Shown piece after piece: positions 6,350-60,278 of a stretch of DNA of 64,000 bases. The DNA comes from Nitrosococcus watsonii C-113 (GTDB lineage: Bacteria > Pseudomonadota > Gammaproteobacteria > Nitrosococcales > Nitrosococcaceae): NCBI RefSeq assembly GCF_000143085.1, contig NC_014315.1:1-64000 (forward strand), in the 5' to 3' direction. The notes under the pieces were generated by a model that saw nothing but the letters and a program-made list of their open reading frames with translations, was not told the DNA's origin and did not search any database. Each line of letters starts with the position of its first letter. Position 1 is the stretch's first letter. A program made the position numbers and the translations under genes.

Positions 6350-7665
6350 TTGAAAAGTATTCATAATCTCTTTCAAGGTCATGAAGCCGGTGTGAAGCCC
6401 CGGGAGGTCGAAGATTTGCAACCAGGGATGGAGCAGGCATAAGGTTGGATAATCAGGCGTAGATTGTTGAGCATGTTTTCCAACCTTTGCCCCTATCCCA
6501 CCAGCGATGTCGGCAAAACGGCTCGGGCGGGTTGGCGGGAGCCGTGGTTAGCTGGCGCTCGCTCAGCCTAGGAGAGGGCTGAGTAGCGTTGCTTTCGGTG
6601 CTTGCGTGGTGGTCAGGGGTCGTCTAAAGACGGAGGTCTGTAGGCTAACCATCAGATAGGCACTACAAACGATTTCCCACCATTTCTCGATCGCAGAGTA
6701 GTCAGTGAGCCGAAAGTCAGCCCATCCCAGTTCATTTTTGTTTTGCTTAAAGCCGTATTCGATCCAGGTCCGCAACCCATAGAGATTGCCCACCTGCGTT
6801 TGGATCTAGCCTGGGAGATGGGTCATCACAAACCAGGTACTCTCGGGAGGGAGTTTCTCCTGATCGGTGGTGATCTGATAGTAGCGCACAGGGCCACGGC
6901 GACCGAAGATCGCCTCACGAATGTAGCGCCTCTTGGTTTCGCCATGACGGAACAACCGATCAAAGGTGTGCCAGCGGTTGGCGCGTACCCGCTGCCCCCG
7001 CAGCAGCCACGCACCATGGTTTTCCCGCATCGCGACTACGTAGTGGAGCCCCCGATCGCTGAGCGCCTGGATGAAATCACCGCTTTCACCATAGAGACTG
7101 TCGGCCAGCACGAGCTCAAAGCGAAAGCCGTATTGGCAGAGCTCATCGATTAGCACCACCGCTAGTTGGGGTTTACTCTGATACACATCGTCTGCTTTCA
7201 GTCGCTTTTGCGGTTTAAAAACCCCAAAGATGAGCGGAAAAGTGTCTCATCGAGTACGCCATAGGCGTTGGCCGACACCCGCCCGTTGTCCACCTTACCT
7301 AGATTACCGATGTACTGACGGGCCACATAATCGGTGCTCTTGCCTTTTTTCCGATCACCCGTCTCATCAAGACACAGCACAAAGGCCCGGCCCCCCAGAG
7401 CCTGTCTCAGTAATCCAAGCCGTTGCTCGCGCAGTGCCTGCGCCTGCCAAGGCGAATCGCTCAGAAAATGATGCGGTGCTTGCTCCTGTCCACCCACCGC
7501 ACGGGCAATCGCCGGCAGCGTCTTTCGGGGCAACTCCGCTAGCAACCCCAGGTGCAACAATTTGAACTGCTCAAAGCTGCGAACCTCAGCAAAGAGTCCT
7601 TGGGACGGGGCGCAATACTGATCAACAAAATGAACCGTCGCTTTCGGTTCCCGAAACAGGCTCAT
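6350..7665 (-). pseudogene. IS701-family transposase, frameshifted
   Basis: Minus-strand pieces together span about 438 codons, matching the usual length of IS701-type (SRSO17-like) DDE transposases. The N-terminal piece 7198-7665 has VLCLDETGDRKKGKSTDYVARQY. The middle 6806-7186 has LVLADSLYGESGDF and VVAMRENHGAWL. The next piece 6563-6793 has RTWIEYGFKQNKNELGWADF. The last part (about 6350-6480) has a LNNLRLIIQP-like stretch and then LPGLHTGFMTL. Frame breaks near 7190, 6800 and 6480-6560 show it is dead. Terminal repeats were not resolved. Confidence 0.75.
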
Positions 7666-43181: not shown

Positions 43182-43257
43182 GGGCCTATAGCTCAGTCGG
43201 TAGAGCAGGGGACTCATAATCCCTTGGTCGCAGGTTCGAGTCCTGCTGGGCCCACCA
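43182..43257 (+). tRNA. tRNA with CAT anticodon, probably tRNA-Ile2
   Basis: The 76-nt gene folds as a full cloverleaf: acceptor GGGCCTA pairs with TGGGCCC, the D arm includes GCTCAGTCGGTAGAGC, the anticodon loop is CTCATAA and the T loop TTCGAGT. CCA is encoded. The variable/T-stem stretch CTTGGTCGCAGG resembles tRNA-Ile2 (lysidine-modified CAU) more than elongator tRNA-Met, but only a tool such as tRNAscan with isotype models would settle it. It borders the accessory island and may have been an integration target. Confidence 0.9.
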
Positions 43258-43702: not shown

Positions 43703-48195
<4,493 letters not shown>

Positions 48196-48200
48196 CCGCC

Positions 48201-48590
48201 ATGAGTGCATTTCAGCGATTTGAGGACATAGAAGCCTGGCAAAAGGCCCGAGAACTGACAAAGGCGATTTACGCCCTGTCAAACGATGGCCAGTTTTCTC
48301 GTGATTTCGGTCTGCGAGATCAAGTCCGCCGGGCATCGGTTTCCATCATGTCCAACATCGCTGAAGGCTTCGGCAGAGGCGGCAATAAGGAATTCATCCA
48401 GTTCCTTTCAACTGCCAAAGGATCAGCATCCGAAGTCCAAGCCCAGCTCTACGTCGCCCTCGACGCTGGCTACATAAACCAAGATCAATTCCAAAAACTC
48501 TATTCGGAAACCGAAGCAACGGCGCGGATGATCGCTGGACTGTTGCGGTATTTACAGAACAGCGACTTCAAGGGAGCCAAGTACAAATGA
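48201..48590 (+). CDS. Four-helix-bundle protein (23S rRNA IVP/Avd-like family)
   Basis: This 129-residue protein has the family opening FEDIEAWQKARELTKAIY and the conserved VSIMSNIAEGFGRGGNKEF. Relatives are encoded in 23S rRNA intervening sequences or serve as accessory proteins of diversity-generating retroelements; many are solitary with unknown role. No retroelement reverse transcriptase is visible here. It starts five bases after brxC and overlaps pglX by four bases (ATGA), so it is expressed as part of the BREX operon. It is not a core BREX gene. Confidence 0.85.
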   Translation: MSAFQRFEDIEAWQKARELTKAIYALSNDGQFSRDFGLRDQVRRASVSIMSNIAEGFGRGGNKEFIQFLSTAKGSASEVQAQLYVALDAGYINQDQFQKLYSETEATARMIAGLLRYLQNSDFKGAKYK

Positions 48591-51307
48591 AACAGGACGA
48601 GCTTTTCAACTCAGAACACAGAACCCAGAACACAGAACCGCAACCGGTCACCTGTCTCGGCATCGAATTCCCAAGTGATGAAGCGCGACGCCAACACTTC
48701 ACCGAGCTACTACGCGACCGGTTGCGCAACCCAGAGTTCCGCAAGATCGAAGGTTTTCCCATCGGCAGCGACGAGGACATCCTGAACCTGAGCGATCCGC
48801 CGTATTACACCGCCTGTCCGAATCCATGGATGGCCGACTTCATCGCAGAATGGGAGGCTCAGAAGCCGGAGCAGCCTGAAGGCCACCACTACCACCGTGA
48901 GCCTTTTGCGGCAGACGTGAGCGAGGGGAAAAACGACCCGATTTATCGAATCCCAAGTTACCACACAAAGGTTCCACCAAAGGCCATCGAAAACTACATC
49001 CTTCATTACACCGAACCCGGTGACATCGTGCTGGATGCATTTTGCGGAACAGGCATGACCGGGGTAGCCAGCCTTCTCTGCAAACCTGCTAAGCGTAATG
49101 CAATTCTGATCGATTTGTCGCCAACAGCAACTTTCACGGCCTCCATAATGAATTCCCCAATCCTTAATGACCTATCGAAAGGGCAAAAAGGGAGGTTGGG
49201 GGAATTTGTAACAAAGAAATTATTACCACTCTATCAAACAGAATGGGATGGAAAGAAGCAGCCGTTTGATTATGCAATTTGGAGTGATTGGGGCGAGTGC
49301 TCCGAGTGCGCTGAAACTTTCAGACTTTTTGATGTGGTTATTGATTTTCAGAATTCAAAAATGCGCCCTGAATACGAGTGTCCAAAATGTGGAGCTGCTC
49401 TGAGGTCTGACTCACAGAAAAAAGCTTTTAGCACTGATTTCGATCCATGGCTAAATAAGCCAGTGCGGATTGCAAAAAATACGATGGTTATGCTTTCTAA
49501 AAAGGTTGGTAACCGAGCAATTAGAAGGACGGTAACAGATAAAGATAAGTTACTCGCTAATGAAATCGGGAACCGTCCTGTTGATCAAACACCGATGGAG
49601 CTACCGTACTCTCATATGACCCATGAGAGAAACAATTTACCCGAGTATTGGGGGATCACGCACATACACCATTTTTATACACGGCGCAATTACTATGCAA
49701 TCTCAAGGGTTGCAGCTATCGATGACCAGGTACTTAGAAAAGCTGGCTTATTCGCAGTAATAACGTCACTTGAAAACAATGCCACAAGACGTAATCGTTT
49801 CTATGTGGATTCCCGTCGCCCAAATGGCTCTCCGGTAGGCCCCCTTTCCAACACGCTCTATGTTCCAACAGTCCAAGTGGAAACCAACATAGGGATGAAA
49901 ATCCTATCTGTTTTGCGTGACACGAGTAAGAACAAAAGTGGTTGGCCTCGCGGCCGTTCATTAGTTTCTACTCAAAGCGCGACTCAGCTTAACAACATAC
50001 CTGACAATTCAGTTGACTTTGTTTTCACCGATCCACCTTTCGGAGGGAACATTAACTACTCCGAACAAAACATCCTTGCTGAATGGTGGCTGCGACTTTT
50101 TACAAACAATGAATCAGAGGCAATTACAAATAGTGTTCAAAAAAAAGGACTGCCCGAATACCAAGCTCTCATGACACAATGTTTCAAGGAGTATTACCGC
50201 GTCCTAAAACCAGGACGGTGGATGGTCGTTGAATTCCATAATTCCTCAAATGGGATATGGTCTGCTATTCAACAAGCACTTGAGGCATCTGGATTTGTAG
50301 TCGCTACCGTAGCGGTTTTAGACAAGATACATTCTACTCTTCACCAGGATCACAAGGCTGCTGCTGTCGACAAAGATCTGGCCATCACCGTCTATAAGCC
50401 AAACGGAGGTCTTGAGCACCGCTTCGAGATGTCTGCTGGATCTGCGGATGGAGCGTGGGATTTTATTCGAACACACTTGGATCAGTTACCGGTCTTTATG
50501 TCAAAAGACGGCCAGGCCGAGGTCATAGCAGAACGACAAAACTATCTTCTTTTCGATCGCATGGTTGCGTTTCATGTCCAGCGAGGGGCTACGGTGCCAC
50601 TTTCTGCTGCAGAGTTCTATGCTGGACTATCTCAACGCTACTCAGAGCGTGATGGCATGTTTTTTACGCCGGAACAAGTTGCCGAGTATGACAGAAAAAG
50701 AATGACTGTGCGGGAAGTTCTTCAGCTCCAACTGTTTGTTACGGACGAGTCGTCGGCCATTCAATGGTTAAAGCAACAGCTCTCAAAAAGAACTCAAACT
50801 TTCCAAGAACTACATCCGCAATTTCTTAAAGAAATTGGCGGCTGGCAAAAGCATGAGAAATCACTAGAACTATCTGTTCTCCTTGAGCAAAACTTCCTGC
50901 GTTACGATGGCAAAAGCCCTGTGCCCGAACAGATCCACGCCTACCTTTCCACCAACTGGAAAGAGCTGCGCAATCTTCCCAAGGATGATCCGACCCTGGT
51001 CGCTAAGGCCCGCGACCGCTGGTATGTGCCCGACCCCAACAAGGCAGGCGACTTGGAGAAGCTGCGCGAGAAGGCGCTGCTCAAGGAGTTCGAGGAATAC
51101 AAAGAGGTCAAGAAGAAGCTCAAGGTCTTCCGCCTGGAAGCTGTCCGCGCCGGATTCAAGAAAGCCTGGCAGGAACGTGACTACGCCGTCATCGTCGCCG
51201 TGGCCGACAAGATCCCCAACAACGTCCTGGAAGAAGATCCCAAGCTGCTCATGTGGTACGACCAGGCGGTCACAAGAATAGGCGATCGTGAGGGGTACTC
51301 AGTATGA
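48587..51307 (+). CDS. pglX: BREX type 3 adenine-specific DNA methyltransferase PglX
   Basis: PglX marks host DNA so that BREX can discriminate phage DNA. The 906-residue protein has methyltransferase motif I in LDAFCGTGMTGVA (Asp150) and the catalytic motif in FTDPPFGGNINYSE (Asp482). Two CxxC pairs (CSECAETF and YECPKCGAAL) form a zinc-ribbon-like insert. The first 20 codons include the reverse heptamer array. Base composition changes within the gene: both ends are GC-rich and the middle, about 49100-50880, is AT-richer. This pattern suggests a past exchange of the catalytic/recognition part. Confidence 0.9.
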   Translation: MKQDELFNSEHRTQNTEPQPVTCLGIEFPSDEARRQHFTELLRDRLRNPEFRKIEGFPIGSDEDILNLSDPPYYTACPNPWMADFIAEWEAQKPEQPEGHHYHREPFAADVSEGKNDPIYRIPSYHTKVPPKAIENYILHYTEPGDIVLDAFCGTGMTGVASLLCKPAKRNAILIDLSPTATFTASIMNSPILNDLSKGQKGRLGEFVTKKLLPLYQTEWDGKKQPFDYAIWSDWGECSECAETFRLFDVVIDFQNSKMRPEYECPKCGAALRSDSQKKAFSTDFDPWLNKPVRIAKNTMVMLSKKVGNRAIRRTVTDKDKLLANEIGNRPVDQTPMELPYSHMTHERNNLPEYWGITHIHHFYTRRNYYAISRVAAIDDQVLRKAGLFAVITSLENNATRRNRFYVDSRRPNGSPVGPLSNTLYVPTVQVETNIGMKILSVLRDTSKNKSGWPRGRSLVSTQSATQLNNIPDNSVDFVFTDPPFGGNINYSEQNILAEWWLRLFTNNESEAITNSVQKKGLPEYQALMTQCFKEYYRVLKPGRWMVVEFHNSSNGIWSAIQQALEASGFVVATVAVLDKIHSTLHQDHKAAAVDKDLAITVYKPNGGLEHRFEMSAGSADGAWDFIRTHLDQLPVFMSKDGQAEVIAERQNYLLFDRMVAFHVQRGATVPLSAAEFYAGLSQRYSERDGMFFTPEQVAEYDRKRMTVREVLQLQLFVTDESSAIQWLKQQLSKRTQTFQELHPQFLKEIGGWQKHEKSLELSVLLEQNFLRYDGKSPVPEQIHAYLSTNWKELRNLPKDDPTLVAKARDRWYVPDPNKAGDLEKLREKALLKEFEEYKEVKKKLKVFRLEAVRAGFKKAWQERDYAVIVAVADKIPNNVLEEDPKLLMWYDQAVTRIGDREGYSV
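48608..48645 (-). repeat. Heptamer repeat array D (reverse) at the pglX start
   Basis: Reverse heptamers AACTCAG, AACACAG, AACCCAG, AACACAG and AACCGC lie within the first codons of pglX and encode NSEHRTQNTEPQP. They are the same repeat family as the arrays inside brxC but in the opposite orientation to array C. The pglX start ATG lies just upstream, so the repeat has become part of the protein. Confidence 0.75.
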
Positions 51308-52176
51308 AGGTGAATGTAGGTACTGTTCGAAGCGATCATACTGGGTTTAACAGTATTGCCTACATAGCTGAACAGACGCGTGGCGTTTTATTTGATTCTG
51401 TCGAGCTAGATTTTTCCTATTGTGGTTTTTTTGAAGCAAATATGGCTGCGCCATTGTATGCAGTTGTTTCAAGGATTCGAGACGAATTAAATGATGTTTC
51501 CTTAACCAACCTAACGCCTTCTTTGGAAACAATTCTCAGAAAAAACCATTTTCTGACTAAATTCCAAAAGACTTCTCTGATAGACACGAATCATACAACT
51601 GTTCCATTTAAAATATTCAAGCTTCAAGCTGGCGAGCAATTTTTCGAATATCTTGAATCCTACATGGACGGAAAAGGAATCCCTACTATGTCAGAAATTC
51701 TGACTAAGCGCTTTCGACAGAGTCTTTTTGAGATATTCCAGAATGCGGCGATTCATTCCAAGTCATCGTCTGGGGTTTTTACTTGCGGCCAATTTTTTCC
51801 TCAGAAGCATCGACTTGATTTCACGATTGCCGATGCGGGAGTCGGTATACGAGACAATGTTCGTCAATATACAGGAAATACAAAGATGAATTCCTGTATG
51901 GCCATAGGGTGGGCCTTAACTGAAGGCAATACTACAAAGACAGGCGATCAACCTGGCGGTCTTGGACTGAAGCTGCTCAAAGATTTTATTTGGATGAACA
52001 AAGGAAAGCTTCAAATTGTTTCCCGCTATGGTTACTACGAATTCTCTGCTACTGGAGAAAACTGCTTAAAGCTGGATCATGATTTTCCTGGGACATGCGT
52101 GAACATTGAAATTAATACACAAGATACAAGTAGTTACTACCTTAAATCCGAGTTGAGCAGTGACGATATTTTTTGA
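51304..52176 (+). CDS. STAS-like/HATPase (GHKL) protein in BREX cassette
   Basis: The 290-residue protein begins with a STAS-like segment (VELDFSYCGFFEANMAAPL) and continues with a GHKL ATPase domain. Its N-box FQNAAIHS has Asn147, the G1 box DAGVGIRD has Asp177, and the G2 box GGLGLKLLKDF begins at about Gly218. No phospho-acceptor His or sensor domain is seen, so it resembles an anti-sigma-like kinase (SpoIIAB/RsbW type) more than a two-component sensor. It overlaps pglX by four bases and precedes a small STAS-like gene. Composition is AT-rich (19 GC of 60 at 51541-51600). It is not a core BREX gene; its function is unknown. Confidence 0.8.
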   Translation: MKVNVGTVRSDHTGFNSIAYIAEQTRGVLFDSVELDFSYCGFFEANMAAPLYAVVSRIRDELNDVSLTNLTPSLETILRKNHFLTKFQKTSLIDTNHTTVPFKIFKLQAGEQFFEYLESYMDGKGIPTMSEILTKRFRQSLFEIFQNAAIHSKSSSGVFTCGQFFPQKHRLDFTIADAGVGIRDNVRQYTGNTKMNSCMAIGWALTEGNTTKTGDQPGGLGLKLLKDFIWMNKGKLQIVSRYGYYEFSATGENCLKLDHDFPGTCVNIEINTQDTSSYYLKSELSSDDIF

Positions 52177-52191
52177 ATTTTGGAGTTCACA

Positions 52192-52551
52192 ATGAACAAT
52201 CGCATAACTATCAGAGTAGTAGACCTTATTGGATCGCAGCTTTGTATTTCTGCCGAAGATGGACAGAAAGTGTTTGATAAGGTGTTGCCTCTTTTAAAGG
52301 ATGGCAAACCAGTGACCATTTCGTTTGATCATGTGAGTATGGTGATTTCACTCTTTCTTAATGTTGCCATTGGCCAACTGTATGGCTCGTTCAGTGAGGA
52401 TGAAGTAAGAGCTCTGATCAAGGTTGAAGGTCTCTCCGGAGACGACATGGAGCTTCTGAAACGTGTTGTTGACAATGCTAAGAAGTATTATTCGAACCCC
52501 AAAGGTTATGATGCAGCATGGCAAGAAGAAGGGGGCGAAGATGAACAATAA
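52192..52551 (+). CDS. STAS-like protein (DUF4325 type) in BREX cassette
   Basis: This 119-residue protein resembles DUF4325. The core segment VTISFDHVSMVISLFLNVAIG matches the STAS-type strand-helix where anti-sigma antagonists carry the phosphorylated Ser. A Glu/Asp-rich C-terminus follows. The ATG at 52192 has GGAG eight bases upstream; the longer frame from 52180 is less likely. It follows the HATPase gene by 15 bp and overlaps the PIN gene by 11 bp, which suggests that the three work together. Confidence 0.78.
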   Translation: MNNRITIRVVDLIGSQLCISAEDGQKVFDKVLPLLKDGKPVTISFDHVSMVISLFLNVAIGQLYGSFSEDEVRALIKVEGLSGDDMELLKRVVDNAKKYYSNPKGYDAAWQEEGGEDEQ

Positions 52552-53092
52552 GGCCTACGACCTTGCTTCTTATGCATTTTCATCCGGGGAACAGATTTTG
52601 GTAGATACCAATATCTGGCTTTACCTATTTCCAGCTCCGGGAAATCCCCAACAAGTTTTCGCGGGACAATATTCGACCGCTTTTTCGAGGCTTGTCATCG
52701 CCCAAGCACAGCCTGTACTTGATCCCATGGTGTTGAGCGAATATTTGAACCGATATTGCCGAATCGAATGGGAAGGAAACTTTAAATCTCAATATCGGAC
52801 ATTTAAGCAATTTAGGCAATCTGTGGATTTTGGGCCAGTAGTTTCATCTGCCCACGCATTTGCAGCAAAGATCTTAAGTTTTTGCCAAATCCATTCTGTG
52901 TCTGCTGATGAACTGGATCTAAATCAGGCATTAACAGATTTTAAATCCGGGCAGGTTGATTTCAATGATGCGATTCTCATTGATATCTGCAAGAAACGAA
53001 ATTTGAAGTTGATGACCAACGATGCAGACTTTCAATATGGGGGCATTGAAGTACTGACAACGAATCCCCGATTGCTAAAAGCTTGTTTCTGA
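52541..53092 (+). CDS. PIN-domain nuclease (VapC-like) in BREX cassette
   Basis: The 183-residue protein has the PIN acidic residues in order: LVDTNIWLYLF (Asp22), LSEYLNRY (Glu67), DFNDAILIDIC (Asp143) and LMTNDADF (Asp161). PIN proteins cleave RNA and are often toxins kept in check by a partner. Here no VapB-like antitoxin is present. The STAS-like and HATPase proteins upstream would be the only neighbours able to control it. The SNF2 helicase gene follows nine bases later. Confidence 0.82.
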   Translation: MNNKAYDLASYAFSSGEQILVDTNIWLYLFPAPGNPQQVFAGQYSTAFSRLVIAQAQPVLDPMVLSEYLNRYCRIEWEGNFKSQYRTFKQFRQSVDFGPVVSSAHAFAAKILSFCQIHSVSADELDLNQALTDFKSGQVDFNDAILIDICKKRNLKLMTNDADFQYGGIEVLTTNPRLLKACF

Positions 53093-53101
53093 GAATTCAT
53101 T

Positions 53102-56002
53102 GTGGAAATACTACCCTGGCAATACAGCACCGTTCATAACAGCGCCTGTAAGGTCATCGAAGAACAGACCTTATGGGGGCAAACGGTGTGCCGTGTCTGG
53201 TTGCCGAACCAGGACGCGGTGGTGCGCGTGCCCCGCTCCGCTTTGCGGCCGCTGAGTGCCGACCTGCAGCCGGATATCGAGACCGGACGTATTGCCTATG
53301 TGGCCGCTGCAGCCAAGGTGGCGGAGGTGCTCGAAGGCTCCACCAGCGCCACTGACGGTCATGTATTGCTGGCTCCCATGGAGTCCAATGTTATCCCGCT
53401 GCCGCACCAGATCCACGCCTTGTCCCGGGCTATCTCCGGCGACCGTGTGCGCTACCTGTTGGCCGACGAGGTGGGCCTCGGCAAGACCATCGAGGCCGGT
53501 CTAGTCATGCGCGAGCTCAAGCTGCGCGGACTGGTTCGGCGAATCCTGGTCGTCTCTCCCAAAGGCATCGCTACCCAGTGGGTGGCGGAAATGCAGACCC
53601 ATTTCAACGAACAGTTCCAGCTCGTACTGGGCGACGACATCGGCACCTTGCAGCGTCTGGCTACAGGCACGGACCAGCGGAACTCAGCCTGGTCGATGTT
53701 CGATCAGGTCATCGTTTCCCTGGATTCGGTCAAGCCCATGGACAAGCGGCGCGGTTGGACCGCCGAGCGCGTTGCCGACTACAACCGCAGCCGGTTCGAA
53801 GATCTGATTACCGCCGGTTGGGATCTGGTGGTGGTGGACGAAGCGCACCGCCTGGGCGGCAGCACAGATCAGGTCGCCCGCTACAAGCTCGGCAAGGGGC
53901 TGGCGGAGGCCGCGCCCTATGTGCTGCTCCTTTCGGCGACTCCCCACCAGGGGAAGACCGATGCCTTCCATCGCCTGATGAACCTGCTGGATGACGAGGC
54001 CTTTCCGGATATGGACAGCGTCTCCCGTGAGCGGGTGGCCCCGTATGTCATCCGCACCGAGAAGCGCAAGGCCATCGATGCCGACGGCAAGCCGCTCTTC
54101 AAACCCCGGCGCACGCAGATGGCCCCGGTGGCCTGGGAGAGCCGCCATCACCTGCAGCAGCTCCTTTATGAGGCAGTGACCGACTATGTGCGCGAGGGCT
54201 ACAACCAGGCCCTGCGCGAGAAGAAGCGCCACATCGGCTTTTTGATGATCCTGATGCAGCGTCTGGTGGTCTCCAGCGCCCGGGCGATCCGCACCACGCT
54301 GGAACGGAGGCTCGCGGTGCTCAAGGAAGGCGAACAGCAAGCCAGCCTGCGCCTGGCGGAGTTGGAAAACGGCGCGGAGGGATCGGAAAGCCCAGACGAT
54401 GAAATGGCCGAGCTCTACGACATGGACGGCCAGGAGCTGCTCGATGAGCTGCTGAAATCTCATGTGTCGGCTCTGCAGAGCGAAGGCAGCCATGTGGAGA
54501 CCCTGCTCGATGCGGCGGTTCGCTGTGAACAAGCGGGACCGGACGCCAAGGCCGAGGCGTTGATTGAGTGGATCTACGAGCTGCAGGCCGAGGAAAACGA
54601 GCCGGACCTGAAGGTGTTGATCTTCACCGAGTTCGTACCGACTCAGCAGATGCTGAAGGAGTTTCTGGAAGCCCGGGGCATCTCGGTCGTTACCCTGAAC
54701 GGCTCCATGGATATGGAGGAACGCAAGCAGGCCCAGGACGCCTTCCGCAAATCGCACCGCGTGCTGGTTTCCACCGATGCGGGTGGTGAGGGCCTGAACC
54801 TGCAGTTCGCCCATGTCATCATCAACTACGACATCCCCTGGAACCCGATGCGGCTGGAACAGCGAATCGGCCGCGTGGATCGTATCGGGCAGCCCAAGAT
54901 GGTGCGGGCGATCAGTTTCGTCTTTGAAGATTCGGTCGAGTTTCGCGTTCGCGAAGTGTTGGAACAGAAGCTCTCGGTAATCTTTGAAGAGTTCGGCATC
55001 GATAAGACCGGTGACGTGCTTGACTCAGCTCAGGCCGGCGAGTTGTTCGAGGATGTGTTCGCGCAGGCGTTCGCCAACCCTGATGGTATCGATGCCTCTG
55101 TCGATCATACGATGGCTCGGCTTCGGGATGAGATTCAGCAGGTGCGGGAGTCCTCCGCCATCTATGGCATTTCCGAAGAGCCGGATGTGCAAACTGCTGA
55201 GCGTCTGCGTTCCCATCCGCTGCCCCACTGGGTGGAACGGATGACGGTGGGCTATCTCAATTCCCACGGCGGTGCGGCCAGCCGCAAGCGCTCCTGGTGG
55301 GATCTGAATTGGCCGGACGGTCAGGAATACCGCAAGGCCGTGTTCAACGCCCGGGAAGCGGAGCACCTGACCGACGCAACTCTACTCAATCTTGAGAACG
55401 GCCGCGTCCGTGGGCTGGCCCTAAACCTGCCGCAGCTCGCGGCTAGCCAACCTTTGCCTTGCGTAAGCGTGAGTGGGCTGCCAGCCAGCATCTCTGGGCT
55501 CTGGGGGCTCTTTGAGATCCGTCTTCAGGCAGGAATGCACCAGAAGACACAACTCCTGCGCATCCCCAGGGTGCGACGCGGCTATGTCAGTGTGTTTCTG
55601 AGCGAGGAAGGCAAACTGTTTCTGCCCACGGCTCGGCATATCTGGGATGCGCTGCATACCGCTGAAGCCCAGGTGCAGGCAACCCTTGGCCAGGATGAAT
55701 CCATTACCGCCCATGAGAGCCTGCAGATTGCTGCCGAACAGGCCGGACAGGAGCTGTTCGACGCCCTGCAGCAGGCACACCTCGCCTCTGTGGCTCGCGA
55801 GGAGGAACGCGGAGTCGTCTCCTTTGCCTCGCGCCGCAAGGCCATCGAACGGGTTGGATTGCCGGAGGTGCGGCAATTCAGGCTGTCCCGTTGCAATGCG
55901 GACGAATCCGAGTGGCGGCATGAACTGCAATCGGCAAGGCAGATCGTGCCGGAAATCCGGTCGCTGCTGATGCTGCGGATCATCAAGGGAGGTGCTCAAT
56001 GA
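53102..56002 (+). CDS. brxHII: BREX type 3 SNF2-family helicase BrxHII
   Basis: This 966-residue superfamily 2 DNA helicase/translocase has ADEVGLGKTIEAGLV (motif I), VVVDEAHRLGG (motif II, DEAH), LLLSATPHQGK (motif III) and the C-terminal lobe motifs VLVSTDAGGEGLNLQFAH and RIGRVDRIGQ. It starts at GTG 53102 and overlaps pglZ by four bases (ATGA). Type 3 BREX operons carry this helicase between pglX and pglZ. Here the PIN cassette has been inserted before it. The gene is GC-rich like brxC. Confidence 0.9.
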   Translation: MEILPWQYSTVHNSACKVIEEQTLWGQTVCRVWLPNQDAVVRVPRSALRPLSADLQPDIETGRIAYVAAAAKVAEVLEGSTSATDGHVLLAPMESNVIPLPHQIHALSRAISGDRVRYLLADEVGLGKTIEAGLVMRELKLRGLVRRILVVSPKGIATQWVAEMQTHFNEQFQLVLGDDIGTLQRLATGTDQRNSAWSMFDQVIVSLDSVKPMDKRRGWTAERVADYNRSRFEDLITAGWDLVVVDEAHRLGGSTDQVARYKLGKGLAEAAPYVLLLSATPHQGKTDAFHRLMNLLDDEAFPDMDSVSRERVAPYVIRTEKRKAIDADGKPLFKPRRTQMAPVAWESRHHLQQLLYEAVTDYVREGYNQALREKKRHIGFLMILMQRLVVSSARAIRTTLERRLAVLKEGEQQASLRLAELENGAEGSESPDDEMAELYDMDGQELLDELLKSHVSALQSEGSHVETLLDAAVRCEQAGPDAKAEALIEWIYELQAEENEPDLKVLIFTEFVPTQQMLKEFLEARGISVVTLNGSMDMEERKQAQDAFRKSHRVLVSTDAGGEGLNLQFAHVIINYDIPWNPMRLEQRIGRVDRIGQPKMVRAISFVFEDSVEFRVREVLEQKLSVIFEEFGIDKTGDVLDSAQAGELFEDVFAQAFANPDGIDASVDHTMARLRDEIQQVRESSAIYGISEEPDVQTAERLRSHPLPHWVERMTVGYLNSHGGAASRKRSWWDLNWPDGQEYRKAVFNAREAEHLTDATLLNLENGRVRGLALNLPQLAASQPLPCVSVSGLPASISGLWGLFEIRLQAGMHQKTQLLRIPRVRRGYVSVFLSEEGKLFLPTARHIWDALHTAEAQVQATLGQDESITAHESLQIAAEQAGQELFDALQQAHLASVAREEERGVVSFASRRKAIERVGLPEVRQFRLSRCNADESEWRHELQSARQIVPEIRSLLMLRIIKGGAQ

Positions 56003-57993
56003 GTAGTTGGCGAGACGCCATCTTGAACGACTTTGTACCCAACGTCAGCAAGCTGACCCTGGTCGCGGACCCGGATTGCCTGTTGACCGAGGAAAAGCTG
56101 GCCTTGGAACTTCGCGGGCGCGGATTCGATTTGATCGAGTTCAGTGACCCGGTCGAATTTAGATACGCCTATGAGTCCAAGTACCGTTCGATCTGGGACC
56201 GGGGTGAGCACACCGATCTGGTGGTGGCCCTTCGCTTGCAGAATGCGGAGCTGGAGTCACTGCCATACGACCTGCTCCAGGCGGGCCGGAAGCTGTCGTT
56301 CAACCTGGGGAATCTCTTCCCCGATCTGAGCTACCCGGTCATTGAGAAGCTCGACCGGAGTTTGTTGGATTCGCTTTTTAAAGCCCAGCGCAAATCGCCG
56401 CCGGATCGAATGGGTGACAATGCCACTAAGGACTTCATCCTGCGACATGTGTTTGGTATTGCGCCTGAATTGATGGTGAGTGAGGTGGAACTCTTAAGAT
56501 CGCTGCTCCGCTTGCATTACGGCAAAGTCCAGCTTCCTCGTATCTTATCTGATCGGCTTGTGCAGGTGCTTAAGGGGCAGGGTGCTTTCCTTACTTGGCC
56601 GCTAGATGAGATCATGCCGGACGAAGAAGCTTTTTTTGCCTTTCTCCAGGAACGCTGGCCAGTGTTTTTGAGCAAGCTTGATGCGGGCAATGAAGTGCGA
56701 GAAAGATCGCTTAAGGAAATCCTCAACTATCCGGGGCCTAGCGTGCTTCCTTTTGATCATCAGGACATCAGAGTCTATATGGGCAATCTGTTTATTGAAG
56801 GGAAACTTACGCCAATTCAGAAGCCAGAGGTTGCTATTGATGCCGGGTCCTGGATTCGTTGTGGTGTTATCGAAGCCAGCGCCGGTGATGACGAAATGCG
56901 CATTTCCCGTCTTTTCGGGCTGGTGGAGAAGGGCCTGCCTACATCGGAATCCCGGTATTCAGATTGGATCACCTTTGCGCTGAAATGGGCCGAGTTATCT
57001 GCCTTGGTTCATTGTGGCTCCAACAGAGAGGATAAAGCTCGGCTTCTGCAAACCGGCAATGCGCTGAATGCCACCTTTGCCCGGTGGCTGAGTATCCACT
57101 ATGCCAGCCTTATTAATCTGCCTCCGAACAACCCGGCGATGGTGCACCATGTGCCACGGCGTTTAGCCCGGGATCTGGAAAATGCCAAGAATAGCCGCGT
57201 TGCTTTGCTGGTGGTTGATGGGTTAGCGCTGGATCAATGGGCCACCATTCGCCCGATCCTCCAAGAGCGGGACCGCAGCCTTATTATGCGCGAGTCGGCG
57301 GCCTTCGCCTGGATTCCCACGCTGACTTCCGTGTCCCGGCAAGCGATTTTTTCCGGCAAGCCACCGCTCTATTTTCCGTCATCCATTAAGTCGACCCATA
57401 ATGAAGAAAAGCTCTGGAAGCAGTTCTGGGAAGGGGTTGGGTTTTCTCGTCTGGATATTGCCTACCAGCGCGGCCTTGGCGACGGTGATGCTGCGGGCGT
57501 CCTCGACTCGGCAATCCACCCTGGGAAGACCAAGGTGGTGGGGCTGGTCGTGGACAAGGTCGACAAGATCATGCACGGCATGCAGCTTGGCTCGGCCGGG
57601 ATGCACAACCAGATCAAGCAGTGGTGCCGGGGTGGTTTCCTCGGATCACTCATCGGCTACTTACTTGATCACGGCTATGAAGTTTGGATGACATCCGACC
57701 ACGGTAATATCGAGTGCCAGGGCAAGGGTCGTCCCTCTGAAGGAGTCACCGCTGAAACCCGCGGTGAACGGGTTCGGGTTTATCCCACTGCGGAATTGCG
57801 GGCTCAAGTGGCCAGCAAATTTTCTTTTGCCCATGAATGGTTGCCAGTAGGGCTACCATCAGATTATTTCCCGCTTGTTGCCGGTGGCAGCAACGCATTT
57901 GCCACCCCTAACGAAGCCATTGTCGGCCATGGTGGAATTGCCCTTGAGGAAGTTATCGTGCCCTTGGTTAAATTTGAGAGGAAAACACGGTGA
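55999..57993 (+). CDS. pglZ: BREX type 3 phosphatase-fold protein PglZ
   Basis: The 664-residue protein has the alkaline-phosphatase-like fold of PglZ. VALLVVDGLALDQWA holds the first metal-binding Asp and a target Ser/Thr region follows in WIPTLTSVSRQAIFSG. VWMTSDHGNIECQGKG and VGHGGIALEEVIVPLV supply further ligands. PglZ is a core BREX protein needed for defence. It overlaps brxHII by four bases and brxA by one, so the end of the operon is tightly coupled. Confidence 0.9.
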   Translation: MSSWRDAILNDFVPNVSKLTLVADPDCLLTEEKLALELRGRGFDLIEFSDPVEFRYAYESKYRSIWDRGEHTDLVVALRLQNAELESLPYDLLQAGRKLSFNLGNLFPDLSYPVIEKLDRSLLDSLFKAQRKSPPDRMGDNATKDFILRHVFGIAPELMVSEVELLRSLLRLHYGKVQLPRILSDRLVQVLKGQGAFLTWPLDEIMPDEEAFFAFLQERWPVFLSKLDAGNEVRERSLKEILNYPGPSVLPFDHQDIRVYMGNLFIEGKLTPIQKPEVAIDAGSWIRCGVIEASAGDDEMRISRLFGLVEKGLPTSESRYSDWITFALKWAELSALVHCGSNREDKARLLQTGNALNATFARWLSIHYASLINLPPNNPAMVHHVPRRLARDLENAKNSRVALLVVDGLALDQWATIRPILQERDRSLIMRESAAFAWIPTLTSVSRQAIFSGKPPLYFPSSIKSTHNEEKLWKQFWEGVGFSRLDIAYQRGLGDGDAAGVLDSAIHPGKTKVVGLVVDKVDKIMHGMQLGSAGMHNQIKQWCRGGFLGSLIGYLLDHGYEVWMTSDHGNIECQGKGRPSEGVTAETRGERVRVYPTAELRAQVASKFSFAHEWLPVGLPSDYFPLVAGGSNAFATPNEAIVGHGGIALEEVIVPLVKFERKTR

Positions 57994-58760
57994 TGGGAAA
58001 ACGGCACGAGGTCATTGGTATCAAACAGGCCATTCGCTATGAATGGATGCAAAAAGCCGCTCACCTCCTTCTTGCCGGGCTGGATGCTAAGACTATTCGA
58101 CAGGAACTCCATGACTACTTGAGTGATCGCATGGGCAGCGGTGTGCGTGCAGAACGCAGTACAGAAGCGAGGTCATTCGCTGTCACGATTTTAATGAACA
58201 TATGGGTTACCCCCGACCCGGTATTGGACACATTGAGAAATGATGCTCTGCTCTATCTGGCACAGGGCCGAAGCGCTGAACTTGCGGTCCACTGGTCGAT
58301 GATCAGCGCGGCGTACCCCTTTTGGTTCAATGTGGCGCGCCAAACAGGACGTTTGCTAGCGCTCCAAAATCAGGTCACGATGAAACAGGTCTCTAGGCGT
58401 TTGATTGAGGTCTACGGTGAGCGCCAAACCGTGAGCCGCAATGCTCAGTTTGTCGTTCGCTCTTTCGCTTTCTGGGGCGTTCTCAAAGATATTGCACAGC
58501 AAGGTTGCTATCAAAAAATAGTATCAACGCCTATTTCCGATCTTAACTTAGTATCTTTAATGCTCGAGGCAGCCCTACATGCCATCCCCAAGGGCAAGGG
58601 AACTTTAGACCTGTTATTAAATAACCCGGCATTCTTTCCATTCCAGCTCCCGCTGATGACAGGCGACTTTATCGGACAGCGTAGGGAGCATATTGAGATA
58701 ATCCGCTATGGGTTGGATGATGAGCTGTTGATGCTGAAGAAAAAACAAGGAGAGCGCTAA
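57993..58760 (+). CDS. brxA: BREX protein BrxA (DUF1819)
   Basis: BrxA is a small DNA-binding core BREX protein of the DUF1819 family. The 255-residue product contains EARSFAVTILMNIWV, LAVHWSMISAAYPFWFNVARQ and VSRNAQFVVRSFAFWG, which match the family's helical pattern. The start ATG at 57993 overlaps the last base of pglZ (TGATG); a GTG at 57990 is also in frame. It closes the operon in the standard type 3 order. Confidence 0.88.
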   Translation: MGKRHEVIGIKQAIRYEWMQKAAHLLLAGLDAKTIRQELHDYLSDRMGSGVRAERSTEARSFAVTILMNIWVTPDPVLDTLRNDALLYLAQGRSAELAVHWSMISAAYPFWFNVARQTGRLLALQNQVTMKQVSRRLIEVYGERQTVSRNAQFVVRSFAFWGVLKDIAQQGCYQKIVSTPISDLNLVSLMLEAALHAIPKGKGTLDLLLNNPAFFPFQLPLMTGDFIGQRREHIEIIRYGLDDELLMLKKKQGER

Positions 58761-59153: not shown

Positions 59154-60278
59154 TGTTTTCTTCTCTGCTCTCACCACATAGACAAGATTGCCTTCTATTC
59201 GCCAGTCGCTCAGAAAGCCCACTGCCTGGAGTTCGTTAAGGGCCCCTTTAAGATTAGCATAGACAAGATTGCCTTCTATTCGCCAGTCGCTCAGAAAGCC
59301 CACTGCCTGGAGTTCGTTAAGGGCCCCTTTAAGATTAGCTTTGAAAGTTTTCAAGAGACCGTCAGCGCTGCCAGACCCTTTCCATAGGTCTCCACCTTCA
59401 TCGGATAGGGTCGAGCATGGCCTAGAATAAAGGCCATGCAGCCACTTGGCTATGGGGCCAAGCTGGTGTCTCATCTCCCATTCAAGCCGAGTGTAGTGGA
59501 CATCCCCAAACAAGACCACCATCTCCGATGAAATCCAAACTTTCCAAGGCCCTCCGCCGTGAGCCCGCCCGAATTTTTGGATAAGAGGTAGAGTCACGCT
59601 TTTCCCTAGCCGGTGACTACTGACGGTCAAGGCTGTGGCGACCATGCGCTCTAGACTGATTTGAAGCCGCTGGTAGCTTTGCCCTTTGATGGCCCAACCC
59701 ACTCCTTTAAGTAGGGCGTAGGGTTTGAACTCCACACACTTACCGAGTGGTCGCGCCTTAGCTTCATGCATGATTTGGAGCCATACATCTTCATCATCCT
59801 GGCGCAGCTCTTGCCCGCGGTAACTGATACGGCCATCTCCCACGACCACAATCGGCACGCCTTCCAAGTAAGCTCTGGCCTGTTTCTTGTTCTTTACCGA
59901 AAAGAGCGCCGAGCGAACCATCTCATTAGGGACACCGCGTTGTTGCCCTTTGTCCCAACAAGGGAGCAAGGGGATGATTTTAGCCGTTTCTGCTTCTCTC
60001 TTGGCTTTGGCTTCACGACGAGTTTTGGCTTCTTGTGCCATCCGAGCGATTTTGTTCGTGATATGCTCCACAGCTTTCTCCAGGCTGCTATTGCCGGTGG
60101 TTTTCCTAAGCGTACAGGGAAGACCGGCTTGAGGAAAGATGAGCAGGGGGTATATAACTCCATCGCGCCGCTTCGCCCCAACTTTCCTCGCCTTGTTAGA
60201 GGGTGGTATAAGGAGAGACATGATAGTCAATAAGGCGCCTTGTCCATAGGCCTGGTAAATGCGGCAGGCCAGATCCAA
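59151..60278 (-). CDS. trfA: TrfA-family plasmid replication initiator
   Basis: TrfA binds iterons and starts replication of IncP/RK2-type plasmids. The product (up to 375 residues) carries the family core VPNEMVRSALFSVKNKKQAR, then VVGDGRISYRGQELRQDDED and GQSYQRLQISLERM. WEMRHQLGPIAKWLHGLYS and the C-terminal ALNELQAVGFLSDWRIEGN end the protein. The last segment is present twice because of an 81-bp tandem duplication. The longest frame starts at 60278; an internal ATG at 60221 is an alternative. It lies immediately upstream of the iteron array, in the layout of a minimal replicon. Confidence 0.88.
   Translation of the reverse strand: MDLACRIYQAYGQGALLTIMSLLIPPSNKARKVGAKRRDGVIYPLLIFPQAGLPCTLRKTTGNSSLEKAVEHITNKIARMAQEAKTRREAKAKREAETAKIIPLLPCWDKGQQRGVPNEMVRSALFSVKNKKQARAYLEGVPIVVVGDGRISYRGQELRQDDEDVWLQIMHEAKARPLGKCVEFKPYALLKGVGWAIKGQSYQRLQISLERMVATALTVSSHRLGKSVTLPLIQKFGRAHGGGPWKVWISSEMVVLFGDVHYTRLEWEMRHQLGPIAKWLHGLYSRPCSTLSDEGGDLWKGSGSADGLLKTFKANLKGALNELQAVGFLSDWRIEGNLVYANLKGALNELQAVGFLSDWRIEGNLVYVVRAEKKT
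59178..59339 (-). repeat. 81-bp tandem duplication in the trfA 3' end
   Basis: Two adjacent, apparently identical 81-bp units (59178-59258 and 59259-59339) encode the 27-residue segment that starts NLKGALNELQAVGF. The unit is a multiple of three, so the frame is kept. It repeats most of the last winged-helix element and may alter DNA binding or dimer contacts. Confidence 0.9.

Follow-up and report, generated by a model that had tools for sequence, protein, structure and literature searches.

The window analysed here is a stretch of 64,000 nucleotides from Nitrosococcus watsonii C-113 (NC_014315.1, positions 1 to 64,000). It contains a complete BREX type 3 operon, in which PADLOC recovered brxF, brxC, pglX(I), brxH, pglZ and brxA together (Table 1). 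Between pglX and brxH lie three further open reading frames, vapK, vapS and vapC, all intact and on the plus strand. The genes are tightly packed: pglX and vapK overlap by 4 bp, vapK and vapS are separated by a 15-bp gap, vapS and vapC overlap by 11 bp, and a gap of 9 bp precedes brxH. The original prediction had placed three extra genes at this position of a type 3 BREX operon, and all four junction lengths given there were exact. It had missed one additional gene, coding for a 23S-IVP four-helix-bundle protein, between brxC and pglX. The last ~100 amino acids of PglX were conserved from operon to operon.

Table 1 Features of the type 3 BREX operon and of the vapKSC cassette in the window
Feature	Position	Strand	Description
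brxF	43703..44200	+	NF033453 8e-59; PADLOC BrxF 1e-69
brxC	44215..48195	+	PADLOC E=0
23S-IVP/four-helix-bundle protein	48201..48590	+	PF05635 7e-39; in the brxC-pglX gap
pglX (PglXI/BrxXI methyltransferase)	48587..51307	+	left edge of the slot; PADLOC PglXI E=0
vapK	51304..52176	+	STAS-like N-terminus and GHKL kinase domain, 290 aa; 4-bp start overlap with pglX stop
VapK codons F42-F43	51427..51432	+	column F42 aromatic; probable counterpart of Escherichia VapK F54 / CapK W68
vapS	52192..52551	+	STAS (DUF4325) antitoxin, 119 aa counted from ATG
VapS S53 codon	52348..52350	+	phospho-acceptor position corresponding to Escherichia S48 (numbering versus PMC13373217)
vapC	52541..53092	+	PIN-domain RNase toxin, 183 aa; 11-bp overlap with vapS
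brxH helicase (type 3 BREX)	53102..56002	+	right edge of the slot; PADLOC E=0
pglZ	55999..57993	+	PADLOC E=0
brxA	57990..58760	+	PADLOC 2e-121

The domain assignments agreed with the families predicted beforehand, a GHKL ATPase with a STAS-like N-terminus, a STAS-like protein and a PIN nuclease. In Pfam, VapK matched HATPase_c (6.4e-6), VapS matched DUF4325/STAS (1.4e-18) and VapC matched PIN (7.5e-9). The N-terminus of VapK showed a weak match to the STAS protein 1sbo (0.0046), and the best Foldseek matches of the VapK AF2 model (pLDDT 85.9, pTM 0.87) included SpoIIAB from SpoIIAB-SpoIIAA complexes. No specific PADLOC or NCBIfam model for VapK, VapS or VapC was found; a match of VapK to DrmA (2.4e-5) probably reflects just the common ATPase fold. 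A system of VapK (STAS and GHKL kinase), VapS (STAS antitoxin) and VapC (PIN toxin) was described in June 2026 for Escherichia sp. E4736 under the name vapKSC, together with the structure of the VapS-VapC complex, PDB 9z7o (Chambers et al., EMBO J 2026, PMC13373217). The window VapS matched the Escherichia VapS (9z7o_A) with 3e-15, and a family profile of the window VapC, from which the Escherichia sequence was left out, matched the Escherichia VapC (9z7o_C) with 9e-13. The identities in the alignments were 38% for VapS and just 18% for VapC, and the RNA target of the window VapC may therefore differ. Both systems share the K-S-C gene order, the domain make-up, the phospho-acceptor Ser/Thr, the PIN acidic residues and the VapS/VapC homology, whereas the window set is distant in sequence and located inside a BREX-3 operon, with its first start codon in the pglX stop.

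The residues expected for such a system were highly conserved. In VapK, E143/N147, D177/G179/G181 and G219/G221 were invariant in 23/23 family members and G218 was present in 21/23, i.e. the N and G1 boxes are fixed and G2 nearly so. Column F42 was Phe or Trp in 23/23, and F42 is, as judged from this column, the probable counterpart of the ssDNA-stacking residue F54/W68 of Chambers et al. (2026). The S53 column of VapS, a protein with a short C-terminal tail running to residue 119, held Ser or Thr in all 25 family members, and the acidic residues D22, E67, D140, D143, D161 and D163 of VapC were invariant in 23/23. At all 13 homologous loci obtained from a kinase-only scan, the kinase gene was directly followed by the STAS gene and then the PIN gene, and the K-S-C order was also kept at further loci from genome searches. 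The co-occurrence proposed as a check of the prediction was thus found elsewhere, with and without BREX. The dN/dS values against the nearest homologue were 0.06-0.15 for all three genes, indicating that vapK, vapS and vapC are under purifying selection. Together with the conserved order at 13/13 loci, these values argue against a chance arrangement.

Similar to SpoIIAB/SpoIIAA/sigma-F, where a GHKL kinase phosphorylates a STAS serine and alters partner binding, vapKSC combines a kinase with a STAS substrate, and SpoIIAB was a top fold match; in contrast, the partner is an RNase instead of a sigma factor, and VapK has a STAS-like domain of its own. No sigma factor gene was found in or beside the cassette; an rpoD-like gene (41313) is located upstream of brxF and does not belong to the operon. 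The PIN RNase toxin is common to vapKSC and the VapBC type II toxin-antitoxin systems, but a STAS protein takes the place of the VapB-type antitoxin; no VapB antitoxin gene was present next to vapC, whose neighbours are vapS and brxH. CapK/CapS have the GHKL kinase, the STAS substrate and the conserved Ser in common with the window set, and this same switch adjoins immune operons there (Chambers et al. 2026), which raises the question whether VapK and VapS regulate transcription of the BREX operon, with VapC being incidental. However, a HTH in VapK and a winged helix in VapS were absent from the 290-aa and 119-aa proteins in the Pfam scan and alignments, so that the window VapK is like the published VapK and unlike CapK. 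Given also the position of the genes in the middle of the operon, away from the promoter, and the conserved active site of VapC, a role as transcriptional regulators is extremely improbable.

In the Escherichia system the inhibition of VapC is due to VapS alone, and VapK frees VapC; the phospho-mimic S48E abolishes the inhibition. The operon by itself protects E. coli by about 2-log against one phage, Bas42, and this protection is lost in the variants D28A, S48A and F54A. That ssDNA is the trigger of VapK is an inference of the published model (Chambers et al. 2026). The partner switch of the SpoIIAB/SpoIIAA type over a PIN RNase, probably abortive, which had been predicted from the window coincides with this model and with the fold match. 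The prediction had further suggested a novel switch for the sensing of phage: the ATPase and the STAS protein would act together to silence the PIN nuclease until a signal from BREX. Gene contents and order match this description, but the antitoxin of the published homologue is VapS alone and its kinase is an activator, in line with the effect of S48E. A silencing function of the ATPase is not supported, and joint silencing appears very improbable. As for BREX as the trigger, the published model proposes ssDNA, and the module is active in E. coli on its own.

The distribution of vapKSC was not restricted to BREX. The pglX-brxH slot held the cassette in six BREX-3 operons, those of the window, of a second genome of the same genus (G002, locus L042) and of the loci L006, L007, L008 and L010. 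These six examples are uninformative on frequency, because five were found via VapK or DUF4325 searches and the sixth is the window. The brxH of L008 was 94% identical to that of the window; several loci are metagenome bins, and organism names, above all that of L008, may therefore be wrong. Five cassettes were located downstream of hmaA in operons of Hma, a BREX-related system (Rakesh and Krishnan, NAR 2026, PMC12839542), at L011, L012, L015, L080 and L013. At L013 the hmaA-like helicase lies further upstream, while at L015 and L080 hmaB directly follows vapKSC. The Hma proteins scanned with PADLOC gave E=0 for HmaA, 1e-228 for HmaB and E=0 for HmaC, and similarity to these proteins was the basis for naming the remaining Hma loci. 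Restriction-modification genes, named from ORFs alone, were adjacent at L045 (type III-like res/mod and a SNF2 helicase) and L076 (type I-like hsd genes); at L077 an HsdS-like gene is located a few genes upstream. Free-standing copies were detected in several phyla (L005, L009, L014, L016, L017, L044, L053, L074 and L075). A 4-bp overlap between the vapK start and the stop of the gene before it occurred in five of the BREX-3 operons (window, L006, L007, L008, L010) and in four of those of Hma (L011, L012, L015, L080); in G002, pglX and vapK abut without overlap. VapK is rare: at 1e-20 it occurred in 5/398 genomes of the window's phylum, and at 1e-30 in 6/375 genomes of the phylum of L006 and 3/199 of that of L012, each count including the genome used as centre.

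A blind sample of BREX-3 loci was obtained by searching 398 genomes from the phylum of the window for BrxF. Within this sample, the window was alone in carrying vapKSC in the slot (0/4 of the other operons read); two further contigs ended too early for the slot to be read. The slot was empty in L047, with 64 bp between the matches, and contained HEC-03 with an RNA ligase in L048 and L050, the genes of the latter being named by likeness to L048, and an NsnB/NsnC-like pair in L049. BREX thus does not need vapKSC, as most BREX-3 operons are without it, and vapKSC does not need BREX, as it is often free-standing. Two operons contained stacked modules: in L007, vapKSC was followed by HEC-03 and RNA ligase, and in L010 by an AriA/AriB-like (PARIS) pair. 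The modules are separated by scars in which a short brxH-head fragment is joined to a pglX-tail fragment (L007 2081-2200, L010 8040-8200), as expected if the slot had been duplicated through unequal recombination and two cargos had then been held. The brxC-pglX gap represents a second variable slot (L042 7900-9567, L047 4711-6576, L049, L052, L006, L010). Its contents in other operons were commonly AlbA_2/Schlafen-like genes, one assigned by Pfam and the rest by likeness, in comparison to the 23S-IVP protein of the window.

The nucleotide sequences of the window and G002 were mostly 88-100% identical in brxF, most of brxC, brxH, pglZ and brxA. In the region that begins at the brxC end and includes pglX and the cassette, the identity fell to 33-80% in most 200-base bins, except for a conserved island of 94% at the pglX tail, and it returned to 96-100% just inside brxH. 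The DNA match of the window to Nitrosomonas covered the cassette only (51303-53086, 80%). In a tree built on the joined VapK, VapS and VapC proteins, the window grouped with the free-standing Nitrosomonas copy L005 (100/100) and G002 with L074 (93/90). A group of window and G002 was rejected (AU p 1e-73), as was the joining of all BREX-3 copies in a single clade (p 7e-7), the tested groups having been chosen after a first tree was seen. The five Hma copies formed one group (94/96), and the BREX-3 copies fell in one part of the tree. Since the window cassette is nearest to a free-standing Nitrosomonas copy and not to that of its congener, whose backbone is 93-97% identical, vapKSC was exchanged separately from BREX. 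The tree results therefore indicate that the module entered or left BREX repeatedly, with copies still clustering by host system. The GC content of vapK, vapS and vapC was 40-42.5%, compared to 48.5% for pglX and 61.6% for brxH. The count of 19 GC in 60 nucleotides given in the prediction was correct, but as a sign of separate origin it is weak: 40-45% GC was also the range of homologues from Nitrosomonas and from further BREX-3 hosts, and those in Elusimicrobia were likewise below their neighbours. Low GC was rejected as proof of foreign origin because members of the family have a low GC content whatever their context; the real evidence of separate exchange is the tree conflict.

Alternatively, VapKSC might be an autonomous toxin-antitoxin unit that gains only its expression from the BREX and Hma operons and is functionally unconnected to BREX. 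Such a free rider would fit the free-standing copies in several phyla, the free-standing nearest relative of the window cassette, whose homology begins and stops at the cassette edges, and the protection conferred by the Escherichia operon on its own. It is less compatible with the fixed position and with a vapK start that repeatedly overlaps, by 4 bp, the stop of the BREX or Hma gene before it, and chance placement would not give a tree with clustered BREX-3 copies and a single Hma clade. We consider this explanation a serious contender, if somewhat short of probable. More doubtful is a direct wiring of VapKSC to BREX-3 and Hma via a dedicated slot, with PglZ/BrxH-made ssDNA on invading DNA as trigger of VapK, and with VapKSC and other abortive modules swapped by pglX-tail/brxH-head recombination. 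A link between BREX and VapKSC is plausible, because PglZ nicking has been proposed as a signal to second-layer effectors (Rakesh and Krishnan 2026).

Very likely, the cassette is a vapKSC, a kinase-controlled toxin-antitoxin unit that serves as replaceable back-up effector in the pglX-brxH cargo slot of type 3 BREX. By analogy with the Escherichia homologue, VapC would at rest be bound by VapS, with its active site blocked. VapK bound to ssDNA would phosphorylate VapS at S53, and phosphorylated VapS would release VapC, leading to RNA cleavage and growth stop. We infer that the ssDNA could stem from replicating phage or be produced by BREX itself (PglZ nicks, BrxH helicase) as restriction begins or fails. 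BREX would then constitute the first layer and VapKSC the second, which probably kills or stalls the infected cell.

An RNase as second line is also known from PrrC, which is nested in the EcoprrI type Ic restriction-modification system, where the R-M enzyme itself masks the nuclease. The nested RNase in a modification-based defence operon is common to both cases; the proteins are unrelated. Nucleases including PIN RNases were described in core BREX and DUF499/Hma loci as a proposed second layer, but there PIN is paired with OLD-ABC ATPases and a kinase-controlled PIN module is absent; STAS, GHKL and HATPase are not mentioned in the text (Rakesh and Krishnan 2026). In the main texts of PMC13373217 and PMC12839542, no mention was found of a vapKSC located inside BREX-3 or Hma operons. 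The vapKSC system and nucleases nested in BREX are known already; new relative to these texts is the role of vapKSC as a cargo that is exchanged at a constant slot of BREX-3 and Hma operons. This joins two findings of 2026, the kinase-controlled RNase toxin and the BREX back-up effectors, a link not made in the text searched. The operons offer natural material for testing whether the DNA damage of a restriction system itself triggers an abortive layer, and the scars and swapped blocks are a readable record of how abortive layers are exchanged.

Several observations concern individual copies and the surroundings of the operon. In L010, vapK is broken by a stop and ~100 extra nt (6840-7150), while vapS and vapC look intact. 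The Hma-nested VapC of L015 (9133-9792) was 36% identical to the window VapC, compared to 51% for VapK and 45-46% for VapC of sister loci, and a toxin replacement is possible. Viral contigs contained no close VapK relative, and a plasmid search yielded one, on Deinococcus gobiensis P5. A phage search returned a VapK relative with 98% coverage and 38.9% identity in an un-annotated fecal 'Bacteriophage sp.' (MT837343.1 4778-5611) as well as matches in seven Streptococcus phages at about 30% identity. The BREX island starts directly after a tRNA-Met gene (window 43182-43257), downstream of rpoD. In G002 the last 49 nt of tRNA-Met are repeated several kb beyond brxA, in the manner of an attachment-site copy; in the window genome, a second copy within 2 mismatches is absent. 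In-frame 7-bp repeats (CAGAACTC / GGTTCTG type) in brxC (window 47071-47130, 47440-47470, 47780-47820) and at the pglX start (48610-48640) look like intragenic repeat elements. Just past brxA, the end of a minus-strand ORF contains a perfect tandem duplication of 81 nt (59177-59338).
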